Notes: generated by a model from the letters alone, not told the origin. Shown: positions 6,760 to 15,654, counted from the first letter of the stretch. The stretch is DNA of 64,000 nucleotides from Pseudoxanthomonas suwonensis (GCA_030535605.1 JAUNRQ010000001.1:25797-89796), one strand, 5' to 3'. Numbers and translations: made by a program.

Positions 6760-7176
6760 CTACTTGTGCGCCTGCTCCAGGTTCACCAGTTGCGTCGGTC
6801 GTGAACCGAAGAACATCGCCAGGTCGGCGATTTCCTGATCGCCCAGGTCCACCGCCTGGCTGGACATCAGCGCATGGTCGCGACGACCGTCACGGTAGCG
6901 CTGCAACGCGTGCGCCAGATAGTCGTGGTACTGCCCGCCGATCTTCGGGGTGTTCTCGTCGATCGGGCTGTTGCCGTTCTCGCCGTGGCAGTCGATGCAG
7001 GTCTGGCCACTGGCCGCGCTCTTGCGCAGGGCAAGGGCTTCGCCGCGGGCGGCGTCGCCGCTGGGCAGGCCGGCCGACGACACGTTCTGACGGCTGGCAG
7101 CCGCCGGGTCCGCCTGGCCACCGGAGCAGGCGGCCAGCAGCAGGGCGAGGGAGACGGCGGGCAGGGTGCGGATCAT
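6760..7176 (-). CDS. Mono-heme c-type cytochrome, lipoprotein-like
   Basis: This is a 138-residue exported cytochrome with one haem site, CIDCH, placed early in the mature domain as in class I cytochromes c. The N-terminus is a signal peptide ending in a lipobox (LLLAACSGG), so it is probably anchored to a membrane on the periplasmic side. A methionine ligand is plausible in the ALMSSQAVDL segment. The start at 7176 gives a normal signal peptide. It lies eight bases downstream of another cytochrome and is surely in the same operon. The pair resembles halves of the c4/c5 family; the electron partner cannot be told from the sequence. Confidence 0.88.
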   Translation of the reverse strand: MIRTLPAVSLALLLAACSGGQADPAAASRQNVSSAGLPSGDAARGEALALRKSAASGQTCIDCHGENGNSPIDENTPKIGGQYHDYLAHALQRYRDGRRDHALMSSQAVDLGDQEIADLAMFFGSRPTQLVNLEQAHK

Positions 7177-7184
7177 GAGGCGGC

Positions 7185-7610
7185 TCACTTGTTCAGTCCC
7201 GAAAGGAAGGCGGCGATGTCGGCGATGTCCTGTTCGGAATAGTTCTCGGCCTGGACCTGCATGGTCGGATGCTCGCGCTGCCCGTTGCGGTAGGCGTTGA
7301 GCGCGTTGCTCAGGTAGGTCTCGGCCTGGCCACCGATCTTCGGCACCCGGTAGTGCGGGTAGATGTTGCGATAGTCGGCGATGCCGTGGCAGCCGACGCA
7401 GGTGTAGGTCAGGGTGCGGCCGCGGTCGCTGTTGCCGGTGAGCGCGGCGCTGGTGATGGCGCTGTCCGTGGTGGCGGCAGGCGGTTCCGGCAGTTCGCCC
7501 TGCAGCTGCGGCGGCGCTTGGTCGGTCCGGGTTTCGGGCTCGGCATCCTGCGCAAGCGAGAGCAAGGGCAGGGCGAGGGTCAGGCCAAGGGCGATCAGCA
7601 GTGGTCGCAT
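7185..7610 (-). CDS. Mono-heme periplasmic c-type cytochrome
   Basis: The 141-residue product has a cleavable signal peptide (hydrophobic run at about residues 3-18, cleavage likely after SLAQ) and one CVGCH haem motif. The haem domain is followed by a KIGGQAETYLSNALNAYRNG segment typical of c4/c5-type cytochromes, and the downstream cytochrome has a matching KIGGQYHDYLAHALQRYRDG segment. The shared pattern suggests the two arose by duplication. I chose ATG 7610, which gives a proper signal peptide; a longer in-frame start at 7670 would add a non-signal extension. A TATACT -10 lies 50 bases upstream. Confidence 0.88.
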   Translation of the reverse strand: MRPLLIALGLTLALPLLSLAQDAEPETRTDQAPPQLQGELPEPPAATTDSAITSAALTGNSDRGRTLTYTCVGCHGIADYRNIYPHYRVPKIGGQAETYLSNALNAYRNGQREHPTMQVQAENYSEQDIADIAAFLSGLNK

Positions 7611-7659
7611 TGGGAGTCTCGTGTTGGTGGATGGCCGCGCCGGCCGGAGGAATCGCCGC

Positions 7660-7689
7660 AGTATAGCCAAGAGTCAGGTTCGTGCAGAA
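7660..7689 (-). promoter_or_regulatory. Promoter of the cytochrome c pair
   Basis: On the minus strand TATACT (7665-7660) is a near-consensus -10. TTCTGC (7689-7684), 18 bases upstream, is a weak -35. Transcription would start near 7653, about 43 bases before the first cytochrome ATG. Confidence 0.5.
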
Positions 7690-7880
7690 TTGGCGGTGGT
7701 CGATGGGAAGGCATCGTTCCTGCCTCGACTTCGGACCTCGCGCACGTTCCCGGGTGACCGGCATGGGGAACTTTTGGCGTTGCCGCGGCTCCATCAAGCC
7801 GCTTCCCGGGCAACCGCCTGGCGGCCGACGACCGGGCCGCCCCGCCTGGGTTCGTCCCGACGATCACCATGACTTCCGAT

Positions 7881-7939: not shown

Positions 7940-9070
7940 ATGGCGGTTCTGCGACGCACCACCCTGATCCAGCGCATGCTGCTGGTGATTGCCCTGGCCT
8001 TGCTGGCCGCCTGCAAACCCGCCGGCATGGGGAAGCAGGCCGACGACTCGGAGACCACGGCCGAAGCCCTGCCGGTGGAGGTGGTGGCGGTCAGCCGCCG
8101 TGCCATCGCCGCCAGTTACAGCGGGACTGCGCCGCTGGAAGCGCGGGCCGAGGCGCAGGTCGTGGCAAAGACCTCCGGGGTGGCCTTGCGGGTGATGGCC
8201 GAGGAAGGGCAGGCGGTGCGTGCCGGGCAAACGCTGGTGCAGCTGGACTCCGACCAGCAGCGTTTGCGCGTGGCGCAGGCCACCGCGCAGGTCAGCAAAC
8301 TCGAGGCGAACTACCGGCGCGCGGCGCAACTGGCCGAACAGCGCATGGTCAGTGCCGCCGATGTCGACCAGTTGCGTTTCGACCTCGCCAATGCCCGTGC
8401 CGCGCGTGACCTGGCGCGGCTGGAACTGTCCTACAGCACGGTGGTGGCACCGATTTCCGGCGTCATTGCCTCGCGTTCGATCAAGCCGGGCAACCTGGTG
8501 CAGATCAACACGCCGATCTTCCGCATCGTCGACGTATCGCGGCTCGAGGCAACGCTCAATGTCCCGGAGCGTGAACTGGAAACCCTGAAGGTCGGCCAGC
8601 CGGTACAGTTGACGGTCGACGCGATCCCTGGACGCATCTTCGAGGGCACCGTCGCACGCATTGCACCGGTGGTCGATGCCGGCAGCGGCACGTTCCGCGT
8701 GGTGACAGCGTTCGATGGCGGCGGCCTGCTGCAGCCCGGCATGTTCGGGCGCTTGCGGGTGGATCACGATCGTCGCGCCGATGCCTTGGCGATGCCGCGT
8801 GCCGCGCTGCTGGATGACGAGGCGGAACCGACCGTTTTCCTGGTACGCGGCGGCAAGGCGCAACGCCAGACGGTGCAGCTTGGTCATGTTGATGGTGATT
8901 GGGTCCAGGTCAGCGACGGCCTTGCCGAGGGCGACCAGGTCGTGACCGCCGGCAAGGTGGCGTTGCGTGAGGGCAGTTCGGTGCAGATCATCGGTGCCGC
9001 GAATGCGGCGGGTGCAGCGGTCGAGCGTGCCGAGGCCGCGGCCGACGCCGACCAAAGCGACGCGCAATGA
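7940..9070 (+). CDS. RND efflux periplasmic adaptor (membrane fusion protein)
   Basis: This 376-residue HlyD/AcrA-family lipoprotein links an inner-membrane RND pump to an outer-membrane channel. A signal peptide with lipobox LLAAC gives a lipidated C25. Barrel-sandwich halves flank a short alpha-hairpin (about 110-150), and a beta-barrel and membrane-proximal domain follow (ASRSIKPGNLVQINTPIFRIVD onward). Only a weak GGA precedes ATG 7940. The stop overlaps the next ATG by four bases, so the three genes form a translationally coupled operon. The order adaptor-pump-pump matches SmeIJK of Stenotrophomonas. No outer-membrane factor is present, so a channel encoded elsewhere must be used. Confidence 0.92.
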   Translation: MAVLRRTTLIQRMLLVIALALLAACKPAGMGKQADDSETTAEALPVEVVAVSRRAIAASYSGTAPLEARAEAQVVAKTSGVALRVMAEEGQAVRAGQTLVQLDSDQQRLRVAQATAQVSKLEANYRRAAQLAEQRMVSAADVDQLRFDLANARAARDLARLELSYSTVVAPISGVIASRSIKPGNLVQINTPIFRIVDVSRLEATLNVPERELETLKVGQPVQLTVDAIPGRIFEGTVARIAPVVDAGSGTFRVVTAFDGGGLLQPGMFGRLRVDHDRRADALAMPRAALLDDEAEPTVFLVRGGKAQRQTVQLGHVDGDWVQVSDGLAEGDQVVTAGKVALREGSSVQIIGAANAAGAAVERAEAAADADQSDAQ

Positions 9071-12000
9071 ACGTCGTGGCCCCGCCGCCGCCCGCTGAGG
9101 ACGGCACCGGCTCTCCCGCAGGTTTCAGCCTGGTGGAGTTCTCCACCCGGCGCCGCGTCACCGTGGCCATGGCCACGCTGTGCCTGGTGCTGTTCGGCTT
9201 GATCGCGTTGGGCGGCCTGAAAGTGACGTTGCTGCCGGACTTGAGCTATCCGACGCTCACGGTACGCACCGAATACGTCGGTGCCGCACCGTCGGAAATC
9301 GAAACGCTGGTCACCGAGCCGATGGAAGAGGCGCTGGGCACTGTGAAGGGACTGCGCAAGCTGCGGTCGGTGTCGCGTGCCGGGCAATCCGACGTGGTGC
9401 TGGAGTTCACCTGGGGCACCGACATGGACCAGGCCAGCCTGGAGGTCCGCGACAAGATGGAACTTGTCCAGCGCCCCACGGACGTCGGCGCGCCGTTGCT
9501 TCTGCGGTTCAACCCCGGCACCGAGCCGATCATGCGCCTGGCGCTTTCGATGGAAGGTGACAGTGAGGGCGGCAGCGGCAATCGCATGGCATTGCTGCGC
9601 CGCTATGCGGAGGAAGACCTGAAGAAGAAGCTCGAACCGGTGGCCGGCGTCGCCGCGGTGCGCGTTGGCGGCGGGCTGGAGGACGAGGTCCAGGTCGATC
9701 TCGACCTGCAGCGCCTGGCGCAGCTGAACCTGACGGTGGATGCGGTCATCCAGCGCCTTCAGCAGGAAAACGTGAACATGTCCGGCGGCCAGTTGCAGGA
9801 AGGCAGCCAGCGGTACCTGGTGCGTACCGTCAACCAGTTTTCCAGCATCGACGAGATCGGCAGGATGCTGGTGAGCGTGCAGGCGGCCGGTGGTGGCGAG
9901 GCGCAGAGCGCGGCCGAGCAGATGGCGCGGGTCGCGGCGGCCACCGGCGATGCCAGTGCCATGGCCGCGGCGGCGTCGGTGCAAAGCGCCAGTGGCGGCG
10001 CACAGTCGAGCGTGGCCGGCGGCCGTCCGGTGCGTTTGCGTGATGTGGCCACCATCACCCAGGGCCACAAGGAGCGCGAGGCGGTGATTCGCCTGGACGG
10101 GCGCGAGGCGGTCGAACTGGCGATCTACAAGGAAGGCGACGCCAACACCGTGGAAACCGCCAAGGGCGTGGAGCAGCGCTTGCAGCAGATCCGCTCGGAA
10201 TTGCCGCCGGAAGCGACCCTGACCACCATCGACAACCAGGCACGTTTCATCCAGAACGCCATCGACGGGGTCAAGCTGGACGCGGTGATCGGCGGTGCGC
10301 TCGCGATCCTGGTGATCTTCCTGTTCCTGCGCGATGGCTGGAGCACGTTCGTCATCGGCCTGTCGCTGCCGGTGTCGATCATCACCACCTTCTTCGTGAT
10401 GGCGCAGCTCGACCTGAGCCTGAACGTCATGTCGCTGGCGGGGTTGGCATTGGCCACCGGGTTGGTGGTGGACGATTCCATCGTCGTGCTGGAGGCCATC
10501 GCCAAGGCGCGTGAACGCGGCCTTGGCGTGCTGCAGGCGGCGATCGCGGGCACGCGCGAGGTGAGCATGGCGGTGGTCGCTTCCACCCTGACGATCGTCG
10601 CGGTGTTCCTGCCGTTGGTGTTCGTCGACGGCATTGCCGGGCAGTTGTTCGGCGACCAGGCGTTGACCGTGGCGATCGCGATCCTGGTATCGCTGGCCGT
10701 GGCGATGACGCTGATTCCGATGCTCAGCGCGTTGCGAGATACCGCACCGATGGCATTCCCCGAGGAAGCCCCGCATCCGCGGTGGCAACCACGCAGTCGC
10801 GTCGGCCGGCCGTTGGCCGCGACCGGGCGCTTCGTCGGCGGGGCGTTTGGCTGGATCGGCTATCGCGTGGCGTGGCTGTTCGTGCGCGGCTGGCGACTGT
10901 TGCTTGCCACCGTGGGGCCGGTGATGCGCAAGGCCAGCGATCTGGCAATGGCACCGTACCAGCGGGCTGAAACGGGCTACCTGCGGTTGTTGCCGCGCGC
11001 GCTGCAGCGTCCCGGACTGGTGCTGGGCTCGGCAGTGGTGACGTTCGTGCTGGCAATGGCGTTGGTGCCGCTGCTGGGCACCGACCTGATCCCGCAACTG
11101 GCACAGGACCGTTTCGACATGACCGTCAAGCTGCCGCCGGGGACGCCGCTGGCGCAGACCGACCGGGTGATCCGCGACCTGCAGCGCGAACATGCCGGCG
11201 GCGATGGCATCCACGCGCTGTTCGGCGTCAGCGGCAGCGGCACGCGACTGGATGCGAATCCGACGGAGAGCGGCGAGAACATCGGTCGGTTGACCGTGGT
11301 GATGGCAGATGGCGGCAGTCGTCAGCTGGAAGCAGCCACTACCGATGCCCTGCGCGGCAGCATCGCCGGGCATCCGACCGCGCAGGTGGACTTTGCGCGT
11401 CCGGCGCTGTTCAGCTTTTCCGCCCCGCTGGAAATCGAGCTGCGCGGCCAAGACCTCGATGCATTGCAGCGGGCCGGGCAGAAGCTGGCGGGGATGCTGC
11501 GCGCGAACTCGCACTATGCCGACGTCAAGTCGACGGTGGAGCAGGGCTTCCCTGAGATCCAGGTCCGCTTCGATGCCGAGCGCGCCGCCAGCCTGGGGCT
11601 GACCACGCGCCAGATCGCCGACGCGGTGGTCAAGCAGGTCCGCGGTGAAGTGGCCACCCGTTATTCGGTGCGCGACCGCAAGGTGGACGTGCTGGTGCGT
11701 GCCGACGCCGACACGCGCTCCAGCGTTGCGGACTTGCGCCGGCTGCTGGTGAATCCCGGCAGTCCGCGACCGGCGACGCTGGAATCGGTTGCCGATGTCA
11801 TCGCCACCACCGGTCCCAGCGAAATCCACCGCGCGGATCAGGTTCGCGTGGCGGTGGTCTCGGCCAACCTGCGTGGCATCGACCTGGGGACCGCGGTGGC
11901 CGAGGTTCAGCGCATGGTGGCGGCCGATCCGCTCGGCACCGATGTCGGCCTGCATGTCGGCGGCCAGGGTGAGGAGCTGGCCGCGTCGCTGCGGTCGCTG

Positions 12001-12498
12001 TTGTTTGCCTTCGGGTTGGCGATTTTCCTGGTCTACCTGGTCATGGCCTCGCAGTTCGAATCGCTGCTGCATCCGTTCGTGATCATGTTCACCATCCCGC
12101 TGGCGCTCGTCGGTGCGGTGCTGGCGCTGCTGCTGACTGGCAACACCATTTCCGTGGTGGTGTTCATCGGCCTGATCCTGCTGGTTGGCCTGGTGGTCAA
12201 GAACGCGATCATCCTGATCGACAAGATCAACCAGCTGCGCGAGGCCGGGGTGGCCAAGCGTGCAGCGATCATCGAAGGCGCTGCCTCGCGCCTGCGGCCG
12301 ATCATGATGACCTCGCTGTGCACGCTGTTCGGCTTCCTGCCGCTGGCTTTGGCGCTCGGCGAGGGTGCGGAAGTCCGCAGCCCGATGGCGATCACGGTGA
12401 TCGGCGGGCTGCTCGTGTCCACGCTGCTCACGCTGCTGGTGATCCCGGTGGTCTACGACCTGCTGGATCGGAAGGAGGAGGTGGCGGATGCACGCTGA
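9067..12498 (+). CDS. RND efflux pump, first subunit, proton relay intact
   Basis: This 1143-residue inner-membrane antiporter has the usual twelve helices and two large periplasmic loops, and corresponds in position to SmeJ. The proton relay is complete: D469-D470 in GLVVDDSIVV (AcrB D407/D408) and K1045 in LVVKNAI (AcrB K940). It is about 100 residues longer than typical pumps. One extra segment is an Ala/Ser/Gly-rich insertion in the first periplasmic loop (about 272-321). The other is a Pro/Arg/Trp-rich stretch (about 557-632) between the two halves on the cytoplasmic side. The substrate is not predictable; drugs or bile-salt-like compounds are the family norm. Confidence 0.93.
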   Translation: MNVVAPPPPAEDGTGSPAGFSLVEFSTRRRVTVAMATLCLVLFGLIALGGLKVTLLPDLSYPTLTVRTEYVGAAPSEIETLVTEPMEEALGTVKGLRKLRSVSRAGQSDVVLEFTWGTDMDQASLEVRDKMELVQRPTDVGAPLLLRFNPGTEPIMRLALSMEGDSEGGSGNRMALLRRYAEEDLKKKLEPVAGVAAVRVGGGLEDEVQVDLDLQRLAQLNLTVDAVIQRLQQENVNMSGGQLQEGSQRYLVRTVNQFSSIDEIGRMLVSVQAAGGGEAQSAAEQMARVAAATGDASAMAAAASVQSASGGAQSSVAGGRPVRLRDVATITQGHKEREAVIRLDGREAVELAIYKEGDANTVETAKGVEQRLQQIRSELPPEATLTTIDNQARFIQNAIDGVKLDAVIGGALAILVIFLFLRDGWSTFVIGLSLPVSIITTFFVMAQLDLSLNVMSLAGLALATGLVVDDSIVVLEAIAKARERGLGVLQAAIAGTREVSMAVVASTLTIVAVFLPLVFVDGIAGQLFGDQALTVAIAILVSLAVAMTLIPMLSALRDTAPMAFPEEAPHPRWQPRSRVGRPLAATGRFVGGAFGWIGYRVAWLFVRGWRLLLATVGPVMRKASDLAMAPYQRAETGYLRLLPRALQRPGLVLGSAVVTFVLAMALVPLLGTDLIPQLAQDRFDMTVKLPPGTPLAQTDRVIRDLQREHAGGDGIHALFGVSGSGTRLDANPTESGENIGRLTVVMADGGSRQLEAATTDALRGSIAGHPTAQVDFARPALFSFSAPLEIELRGQDLDALQRAGQKLAGMLRANSHYADVKSTVEQGFPEIQVRFDAERAASLGLTTRQIADAVVKQVRGEVATRYSVRDRKVDVLVRADADTRSSVADLRRLLVNPGSPRPATLESVADVIATTGPSEIHRADQVRVAVVSANLRGIDLGTAVAEVQRMVAADPLGTDVGLHVGGQGEELAASLRSLLFAFGLAIFLVYLVMASQFESLLHPFVIMFTIPLALVGAVLALLLTGNTISVVVFIGLILLVGLVVKNAIILIDKINQLREAGVAKRAAIIEGAASRLRPIMMTSLCTLFGFLPLALALGEGAEVRSPMAITVIGGLLVSTLLTLLVIPVVYDLLDRKEEVADAR

Positions 12499-12561
12499 CC
12501 GCCGCTACCTCGCCGTCGCCCGGTGCGACGACGTGCACGCGCGCCGCGCGGAGAATCCGGC

Positions 12562-15500
12562 ATGAGCATCGCCGAGTTGTCCATCCGCCGACCGGTCACC
12601 ACGGTCATGCTGTTCGTGTCGATGATGGTGATCGGCCTGATTGCCTCGGTGCGCCTGCCGCTGGAAGCGCTGCCGGACATCTCCCCGCCGTTCATGTTCG
12701 TGCAGCTGCCCTACGCCGGCTCCAGCCCCGAAGAGGTCGAGCAGTCGGTCGTGCGCCCCGCCGAGGAGGCGCTGGCCACCATGAGCGGGCTGAAGCAGAT
12801 GATGAGCAATGCCTCCGCCGAAGGCGGCGGCGTGTTCATGGAGTTTTCCGACTGGGACCGGGACACCGCCATCGCCGCGTCGGAAGCGCGCGAGCGGCTG
12901 GATGCGATCCGTGACCAGTTGCCGGATGATTTCCAGCGCTATTTCGTGTTCAAGTGGTCCAGCGCCGACGAGGCGGTGCTGCGCGTGCGGCTGGCGGGTG
13001 ACATCGACCTTTCCGGTGCCTACGAACTGATCGACCGGGAAATGAAGCGGCGCCTGGAGCGGGTTGCCGGCGTCGCCCGCGTGGAGATCAGTGGCGCGCC
13101 GCCGAACGAGGTCGACGTGGCGATCGACGCCGACCGGCTGACCGCCCACGGATTGGCGATCAATGATGTCGCCACCCGCCTGCGACAGGCGAATTTCTCG
13201 ATCTCGGCGGGTCTGGTCGAAGACGGCGGTCGGCGTTTTCGCGTCCAGCCGATCGGCGAACTGTCGAGTCTGGAGCAACTGGAAGCGATACCGCTGGATG
13301 CGCGCGGCACGCGGCTGGGCGATATCGCTCAGGTGCGCCTGCAACCGACGCGGATCGATTCCGGCCGACGCCTGGACGGCCGTCCGGCGGTCGGCCTTGA
13401 CGTGTTCAAGGAGCGCAACGCCAACCTGGTCGAGGTCAATCGCAATGTCCTGGCGGAACTGGAACGGATCAAGGACGAGCCGCAGCTCAGCGGCATCGAC
13501 ATCAAGGTCATCCAAGACCTGGGCAAGGAGGTGACCACCTCATTGCTGGAACTGGCCGAAGCCGGGGCCATCGGCCTGCTGCTTTCGATCGCGGTGCTGT
13601 TCTTCTTCCTGCGTCACTGGCCTTCGACGCTGATGGTGACGCTGGCCATCCCGATCTGCTTCATCATCACCCTGGGTTTCATGCATTTCTTCGGTGTCAC
13701 CCTCAACGTGTTGACGCTGATGGGGCTGCTGCTGGCGGTCGGCATGCTGGTGGACAACGCGGTGGTGGTGGTCGAGTCGATCTACCAGGAGCGCGAACGC
13801 ATGCCCGGCGAGCCGCGACTGGCGTCGATCCTGGGCACGCGCCACGTCGCCATCGCGCTGTCGGCGGGAACCTTGAGCCATTGCATCGTGTTCCTGCCGA
13901 ACCTTTTCGGCGAGACCACCAACATCTCAATTTTCATGAGCCAGTTGGCAATCACCATCTCGGTGTCACTTCTGGCCTCGTGGCTGGTGGCCGTTAGCCT
14001 GATCCCGATGATCTCCGCGCGCCTGAAAACGCCGCCGGCGGTGCGCTCCGAGCGCGGGGTGATCCCGCGTCTGCAGCAAGGTTACGCGCGGCTGTTGCGC
14101 TGGTCGCTGGTGCACCGCGGCAAGACCCTGCTCGGCATCGTCCTGGTGGTCGCCGCGAGCATCGTGCCGATGACGCAGACGAAGATGGAATTCTTCGGCA
14201 GCGGCGAGGCCGGCAACGAAGTCAACATCTGGTACCAGTTCCACGGCAGTTACACCCGCGAACAGGTATCGGAGGAAGTACGGCGGGTGGAAGCGTGGCT
14301 GGAACCACGTCGCCAGTCCCTCGGCATCACGCAGGTGTATTCGTGGTTCAGCGAAAACGGCGGTGCCGGGACGATGGTCACGCTCGGAGACGACGGTCCC
14401 GGCACGAAGGCCGTCAGTGAGGCAATCAGCGAAGGTCTGCCGAAATCGGCCAGGGCGCGGATCGGCGTCGGACAACAGCAGGGCATGGGTGGCGGCAGCG
14501 CCGGCGGCCTGCAGCAGAACGTGCAGGTCCAGCTGGTCGGCGACTCCACGCAGACGTTGCTGGAGTTGTCCGAGGCGGTGGTACCGGCACTGGCCGCGCG
14601 CTCCGAGCTGCGCGACGTGCGCGTGGACGTGGGTGATCGCAACAACGAGCTGACCTTGCGCGTCGACCGCAATCGCGCCGCGGCGTTCGGATTCAGCGCC
14701 CAGGATGTGTCCACCTACGTCAACCTTGCCATGCGCGGCAGCCAGTTGCGCGAATTCCGGCATGGGGCCGCGCAGCTGCCGGTCTGGGTGCGCTTCGAAG
14801 GCGCGCAGCAATACAGTGCCGATGACATCCGCAGCCTGCTGGTACGCGCCCCCGATGGACGCATGGTGCCGCTGGCGGCGATGGTCGATGTCTCGGTGGT
14901 GCCGGCGGCAGCGCGGATCAATCGCTACAACCGCCAGACCACGCTCACCATCCGTGCGAACCTCGCGCAGGGAAGCACCATGGGCGATGCCCGCAAGGCG
15001 ATGGAATCGGTGCTCGCCACCATGCAGTTCCCGGCCGGTTATCGGCACTCCTTCGAGGGGTCCGGCTTCCAGCAGGACGCCGAGGGCATCAAGCGGATGC
15101 TGTTCAACCTGGTCCTCGCGGTGGTGCTGATCTACGTGCTGATGGCCGCGGTGTTCGAATCGCTGCTGTTTCCCACCGCGATCATGAGCTGCGTGGTGTT
15201 CTCGATCTTCGGCGTGTTCTGGCTGTTCTGGCTGACCGGCACCGCGTTCACGGTGATGGCGTTCATCGGCATCCTGGTGCTGATGGGGGTGGTGGTGAAC
15301 AACGGCATCATCATGGTCGAGCACATCAACAACCTGCGCCGCCGCGGCATGAACCGCACCGACGCGTTGGTGGCCGGCAGTCGCGAGCGACTGCGCCCGA
15401 TCCTCATGACCATGGGCACCGCGGTGCTGGCGATGATCCCGATTTCGCTCAGCGACACCGTGATCCTGGGCGGCCTGGAATACTCGCCGATGGCCCGTGC

Positions 15501-15654
15501 GGTGGCCGGGGGACTGGCCTTCTCCACGGTGGTCAGCCTGCTGTTCCTGCCGACCATCTATGCGCTGCTGGATGATTGGCGTGCCGGACTGGCCCGCACC
15601 GTGCGGCGCGCGCGTGGAGTCACGCCACGGCTGGACGGACCCGTGCTGTCATAG
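12562..15654 (+). CDS. RND efflux pump, second subunit, relay residues changed
   Basis: The 1030-residue product is a second, different RND subunit, corresponding in position to SmeK. I chose ATG 12562 because GGAGAA sits six bases upstream and MSIAELSIRRPVTTVM is the family N-terminus; a GTG at 12523 would add 13 odd residues. The relay differs from its partner: the second Asp of the pair is N399 (MLVDNAVVV), and the position of AcrB K940 is N913 (VVVNNGI). It may therefore work as the non-pumping member of a heterotrimer, as proposed for one subunit of MdtBC (inference). The gap to the first pump gene is 63 bases. Confidence 0.93.
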   Translation: MSIAELSIRRPVTTVMLFVSMMVIGLIASVRLPLEALPDISPPFMFVQLPYAGSSPEEVEQSVVRPAEEALATMSGLKQMMSNASAEGGGVFMEFSDWDRDTAIAASEARERLDAIRDQLPDDFQRYFVFKWSSADEAVLRVRLAGDIDLSGAYELIDREMKRRLERVAGVARVEISGAPPNEVDVAIDADRLTAHGLAINDVATRLRQANFSISAGLVEDGGRRFRVQPIGELSSLEQLEAIPLDARGTRLGDIAQVRLQPTRIDSGRRLDGRPAVGLDVFKERNANLVEVNRNVLAELERIKDEPQLSGIDIKVIQDLGKEVTTSLLELAEAGAIGLLLSIAVLFFFLRHWPSTLMVTLAIPICFIITLGFMHFFGVTLNVLTLMGLLLAVGMLVDNAVVVVESIYQERERMPGEPRLASILGTRHVAIALSAGTLSHCIVFLPNLFGETTNISIFMSQLAITISVSLLASWLVAVSLIPMISARLKTPPAVRSERGVIPRLQQGYARLLRWSLVHRGKTLLGIVLVVAASIVPMTQTKMEFFGSGEAGNEVNIWYQFHGSYTREQVSEEVRRVEAWLEPRRQSLGITQVYSWFSENGGAGTMVTLGDDGPGTKAVSEAISEGLPKSARARIGVGQQQGMGGGSAGGLQQNVQVQLVGDSTQTLLELSEAVVPALAARSELRDVRVDVGDRNNELTLRVDRNRAAAFGFSAQDVSTYVNLAMRGSQLREFRHGAAQLPVWVRFEGAQQYSADDIRSLLVRAPDGRMVPLAAMVDVSVVPAAARINRYNRQTTLTIRANLAQGSTMGDARKAMESVLATMQFPAGYRHSFEGSGFQQDAEGIKRMLFNLVLAVVLIYVLMAAVFESLLFPTAIMSCVVFSIFGVFWLFWLTGTAFTVMAFIGILVLMGVVVNNGIIMVEHINNLRRRGMNRTDALVAGSRERLRPILMTMGTAVLAMIPISLSDTVILGGLEYSPMARAVAGGLAFSTVVSLLFLPTIYALLDDWRAGLARTVRRARGVTPRLDGPVLS

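Follow-up and report, generated by a model that had tools for sequence, protein, structure and literature searches.

Gram-negative bacteria export drugs chiefly through RND pumps, some of which require two permeases. In MdtABC of Escherichia coli and MuxABC of Pseudomonas aeruginosa a gene for a membrane fusion protein (MFP) is followed by two tandem RND permease genes in one operon, and the MdtABC operon has no outer-membrane gene. MdtB and MdtC, which share 50% identity, are shown in the literature to form a heteromeric B2C pump. Both have the relay residues D-D/K, that is, aspartate at the sites of AcrB D407 and D408 and lysine at that of K940. SmeIJK of Stenotrophomonas maltophilia has the same gene order, and comes from the same bacterial family as the locus described below. 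The reports on this nearest analogue conflict, and the literature is thus divided: in strain KJ either SmeJ or SmeK largely suffices by itself (PMC4229105), but another study, as cited in that paper, has both as essential. In a survey of 6205 RND proteins the tandem permeases were confined to the MdtBC/MuxBC/SmeJK clade (PMC10872679).

The operon and its relation to known tandem pumps

The window analyzed is a 64,000-nucleotide stretch of DNA from Pseudoxanthomonas suwonensis, taken from an assembly of 2.23 Mb that is 82% complete. The nearest named relatives at the pump locus are Lysobacteraceae, Luteimonas and Lysobacter. A first-pass annotation of the window had placed two permeases, here called RND1 and RND2, at 9067-15654. 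These coordinates are correct, and the operon additionally contains an MFP gene, for the periplasmic adaptor, from 7940 (Table 1). The adaptor stop overlaps the RND1 start in the sequence ATGA. For RND2 an alternative GTG start at 12523 would give a protein of 1043 residues, with residue numbers raised by 13. The ATG at 12562 is invariant among relatives and has GGAGA seven bases 5' of it, and the earlier numbering of RND2 is therefore correct. Both permeases match PF00873 (ACR_tran) over its full length, far beyond the gathering score of 28.

Table 1. Genes of the efflux operon and codons of the relay residues, in window coordinates
Feature	Position	Strand	Evidence
Membrane fusion (periplasmic adaptor) protein, 376 aa, operon gene 1	7940..9070	+	TIGR01730 (RND_mfp) 278 bits, cut-off 94.9; HlyD_D23
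RND1, RND permease, 1143 aa	9067..12498	+	PF00873 819 bits; relay alignment
RND1 D469-D470, codons GAC GAT (AcrB D407-D408)	10471..10476	+	alignment, direct codon reading
RND1 K1045, codon AAG (AcrB K940)	12199..12201	+	alignment, direct codon reading
RND1 R1075, codon CGC (AcrB R971)	12289..12291	+	alignment, direct codon reading
RND2, RND permease, 1030 aa from ATG	12562..15654	+	PF00873 689 bits; AlphaFold2 model and structure match
RND2 D398-N399, codons GAC AAC (AcrB D407-D408)	13753..13758	+	alignment, direct codon reading
RND2 N913, codon AAC (AcrB K940)	15298..15300	+	alignment, direct codon reading
RND2 R943, codon CGA (AcrB R971)	15388..15390	+	alignment, direct codon reading

As in MdtABC, there is no outer-membrane channel gene within the operon; two OEP-family genes lie elsewhere in the genome. 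Cytochrome c genes at 6760-7797 and 7185-7670 on the minus strand diverge from the pump operon, and of about 70 named relatives in which the adaptor is present (duplicates not removed), 63 have an opposite-strand cytochrome c gene upstream. A common promoter region or a functional connection with the pump is possible. By comparison serC, which lies downstream in the window, is not near the pump in any of those relatives.

The gene order is that of MdtABC, MuxABC and SmeIJK, but the permeases are different. RND1 and RND2 share just 30% identity, and their identity to MdtB and MdtC, from which they branch separately in our trees, is 25-30%. Against the MdtB and MdtC models, with cut-offs of 1584 and 1774 bits, RND1 scores 436 and 443 and RND2 332 and 378, so that both fall far below, and orthology to MdtBC is excluded. 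The pump had also been described as SmeIJK-like, a label that we do not retain. Two S. maltophilia genomes that have the window's system hold a separate SmeJK-type pair elsewhere, which agrees with what has been published on SmeJ and SmeK. Both SmeJK-type permeases are D-D/K, with 42-43% identity between them and 25-29% to the window pair; this and the coexistence within S. maltophilia exclude orthology. Two wrong-strand open reading frames (L217 and L223) were left out of this comparison. AcrB and MexB (HAE-1) share the overall fold and, with RND1, the relay, but these are single permeases, the identity to AcrB is 24%, and RND2 lacks D408 and K940. The Pfam and NCBIfam models do not set the pair apart from other RND permeases. 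From sequence comparison the window pair thus seems to be a second, separate tandem system of the form MFP-RND1-RND2, unplaced among the clades of the published survey.

Relay residues of the two permeases

The relay sites were located by alignment with E. coli AcrB, MdtB, MdtC and CusA, taking AcrB D407, D408, K940 and R971 as reference. RND1 has D469, D470, K1045 and R1075 at these four positions, which is the full classical HAE-1 relay. RND2, numbered from the ATG at 12562, has D398, N399, N913 and R943, with asparagine at both the D408 and the K940 sites. The motifs of both permeases align without gaps and in the expected helices. A shift of the relay positions in RND2 had been set beforehand as the refutation of this asymmetry; the AlphaFold2 model for RND2 (mean pLDDT 79) has D398 and N399 within the TM4 helix and N913 within the TM10 helix, and no shift was found. 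The claim of asymmetric relay residues in two adjacent pumps is thus confirmed by alignment, codons and the RND2 model. Chance or misalignment as its source is excluded by the gap-free alignment, the model, and the presence of the same D-N/N-R relay in all 118 distinct RND2 orthologues.

When compared with chains of AcrB, AdeB, AcrD and CmeB, the model of RND2 can be superposed over 944-991 residues, the Z scores being 46-48 and the rmsd about 4. RND2 is thus predicted to have an AcrB-like protomer fold. Searching the solved structures by sequence gave general RND matches only. The RND1 model has a pLDDT of 70. Relative to AcrB and RND2, RND1 has two insertions (window 9874-10020 and 10735-10986), one a periplasmic stretch rich in Ala, Gly and Ser, the other an extended cytoplasmic helix linking TM6 to TM7 (helix 581-647 in the model).

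Origin of the relay asymmetry

Relatives of the pair were counted after removal of duplicates from overlapping collections, giving 119 distinct loci with 118 RND2 and 106 RND1 sequences. The RND1 relay is D-D/K-R in 90 of the 106. The remaining 16 are DN/N (nine), DN/S (three), DA/N (three) and DG/N (one), so that in these pairs the AcrB relay is absent from both members. Beyond the order, every fully read RND1 of a pair is DN/N, and the others have asparagine at the K940 site. An asymmetric relay is therefore not obligatory for the pair. Joint states at sites 408 and 940 in 242 pair sequences (duplicates not removed) are NN (139), DK (96), NS (three), AN (three) and GN (one), and the half-switched state was never seen among them. 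Sites 408 and 940 switch as one unit. The codon changes from asparagine, AAY to GAY and AAY to AAR, require one base each. Half relays, with D-D and asparagine or alanine at the K940 site, occur rarely in single-permease operons (L204, L205 and L208).

The direction of the change was examined in a maximum-likelihood tree of 80 permeases from which columns 408 and 940 had been removed. A single clade (SH-aLRT 99.6, bootstrap 100) contains all the D-D/K RND1s and is nested within successive D-X/N RND1 lineages (99.8/100, 97.7/99, 99.7/100 and 98.2/100). Constraining the D-X/N RND1s to be monophyletic lowers the log-likelihood by 69 units, and the AU test rejects this topology (p = 2e-5), while D-D/K at the RND1 root has a probability below 4e-6 under two rate models. 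By parsimony a single gain is enough, where the alternatives need three changes or six losses. The nesting recurs (100/100) in a second tree, built with additional single-permease outgroups; since two wrong-strand open reading frames (from L247 and L259) sit on a long branch close to RND2 there, that tree was used for the nesting only. Neither tree groups RND1 and RND2 as sisters, and in both the deep branches are weakly supported.

The nested clade and the rejected alternative place the origin of the asymmetry in a gain by RND1. The relay had been taken to be lost from the second pump. This loss is excluded by the nesting, the AU test and the RND1 root state; as read from the trees, the classical relay is gained once in RND1 and D-N/N is ancestral. 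RND2 kept the ancestral form, and should not be called broken.

Relays of this kind also occur in pumps with a single permease. Twelve proteobacterial operons whose flanks were examined (L192-L203) each encode a single adaptor and a single permease, the relay of the latter being DP/N, DN/N, DA/N or DS/N. Others (L246-L260) encode DS/N or DN/N permeases with about 30-34% identity to RND1 and to RND2 alike. Like the window these are MFP-RND operons, but with one permease, and they are presumably homotrimers. D-X/N is thus an ordinary state for pumps that have no D-D/K partner in the operon. It has been argued that one buried aspartate suffices, D408 being less conserved than D407, and that the TM10 lysine is not essential, its removal tending to accompany that of D408 (PMC5719797). 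Against this, D408N or K940A alone abolishes activity in AcrB (PMC4359379), although neither mutant represents the double D-N/N state. If lysine and D408 are lost jointly, the single mutants can be inactive without the same applying to a natural D-N/N relay. We found no functional data on D-N/N pumps in the literature on relay variants or SwrC, nor any on the window operon.

Chemically, a carboxylate that is left with neutral oxygen ligands and no competing lysine might bind another cation such as sodium, and the pair would then couple two ion gradients. D-X/N pumps are widespread, however, and we regard this as highly improbable.

These results bear directly on the proposal that only one subunit type drives proton flow. 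At its strongest, RND2 would be energetically silent in a heterotrimer, with RND1 supplying all the proton coupling, at least where RND1 is D-D/K. The asymmetry is real and is fixed across the D-D/K clade, and there is a precedent for unequal energetic roles in an RND pair, since in the MdtB2C pump of E. coli a relay mutation is more harmful in MdtB than in MdtC (PMC4338810). Yet RND2 keeps the equivalents of D407 and R971 without exception, it has undergone no loss event, and D-X/N is found both in single-permease pumps and in ancestral pairs where both members are D-X/N. A silent RND2 is thus rather improbable. Nor is the one-driver logic supported for the pair in general; the 16 pairs above and those outside the order persist although neither member has the AcrB relay, and D-X/N in single-permease operons also counters it. 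Most likely both subunits are energized, RND2 by a one-carboxylate relay.

Conservation and action of the pair

RND1 adjoins RND2 in all 115 of the distinct loci where this could be tested, the other four being cut by contig ends. The order adaptor-RND1-RND2, or whatever part of it the contig holds, is found in 48 of 48 fetched relative loci with the gene, and likewise in every named locus with enough upstream contig. The pair occurs in Xanthomonas, Stenotrophomonas, Lysobacter, Luteimonas and others. In other gammaproteobacteria outside the order the RND2 orthologue is preceded by RND1 wherever the upstream sequence is covered, and no RND1 orthologue is present in eight genomes from the order where RND2 is missing. 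The four-base overlap of RND1 and RND2 is present in most of 97 loci (duplicates not removed). Synteny therefore bears out the suggestion of a conserved, coupled pair of permeases with a single adaptor gene ahead of them. It shows that the permeases function jointly, without implying a mixed trimer. Orthologous pairs were also found on contigs labelled as metagenome-assembled genomes of a Rhizobium sp. (L111) and of candidate division KSB1 (L161); these are probably mis-binned or the result of transfer.

At three loci RND2 is present twice in tandem, in the order adaptor, RND1, RND2, RND2' (L062 7312-13564, L093 6270-12522 and L136 2769-9057). Luteimonas gilva and Rudaea cellulosilytica are among the species concerned, and an extra copy of RND1 was not seen. 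The duplication of RND2 only may hint at the stoichiometry.

The two permeases could instead form separate homotrimeric pumps with different substrates, sharing the adaptor and the outer-membrane channel. Their low mutual identity is in keeping with this, as are the largely sufficient function of either SmeJ or SmeK in strain KJ (PMC4229105), the partial function of MdtAC without MdtB, and the formation of MdtB homotrimers in vitro, the last two known from the literature. Independent pumps would be expected to be lost singly on occasion, however, whereas RND1 and RND2 are never apart in the testable loci and are present or absent together, and their translation starts are coupled through the overlap. 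We consider two homotrimers unlikely. Because the adaptor is shared, the pairing obligate and translation coupled, joint action is preferred, most likely as a mixed trimer like MdtB2C. By this analogy an RND1/RND2 heterotrimer is plausible.

We propose the following account. The three genes are a tripartite efflux operon whose pump would export through an outer-membrane channel encoded elsewhere, and the permeases are an old obligate pair, distinct from MdtBC and SmeJK. Both would at first have used a one-carboxylate relay, comprising the TM4 aspartate (AcrB D407) and the TM11 arginine (AcrB R971), the D408 and K940 sites being taken by asparagine or some other neutral residue. On the branch leading to the Lysobacteraceae and their neighbors RND1 alone then acquired D408 and K940, leaving RND2 unchanged. 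Both subunits would still be energized, RND2 through D398 and R943 and RND1 of the window through its AcrB-type relay, with RND2 perhaps using fewer protons per cycle than RND1. The two would act jointly, probably as a mixed trimer on the common adaptor. Taken as a whole, we think that this reading is somewhat more probable than its negation. More tentatively, and with rather less confidence, the pair may represent an unrecognized heteromeric RND family outside MdtBC/MuxBC/SmeJK, with unlike relays and unequal proton numbers per subunit, descended from a symmetric ancestor when one subunit gained the AcrB-type relay.

One subunit switched from a one-carboxylate relay to one with two carboxylates and a lysine, changing both sites together, and its partner did not. 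This switch in RND1 only is a natural experiment on the number of protons needed per RND subunit per cycle, in which both types of relay can be compared within a single operon family. If the more tentative reading is true, the subunits of one trimer would consume unequal numbers of protons through different relay chemistries.
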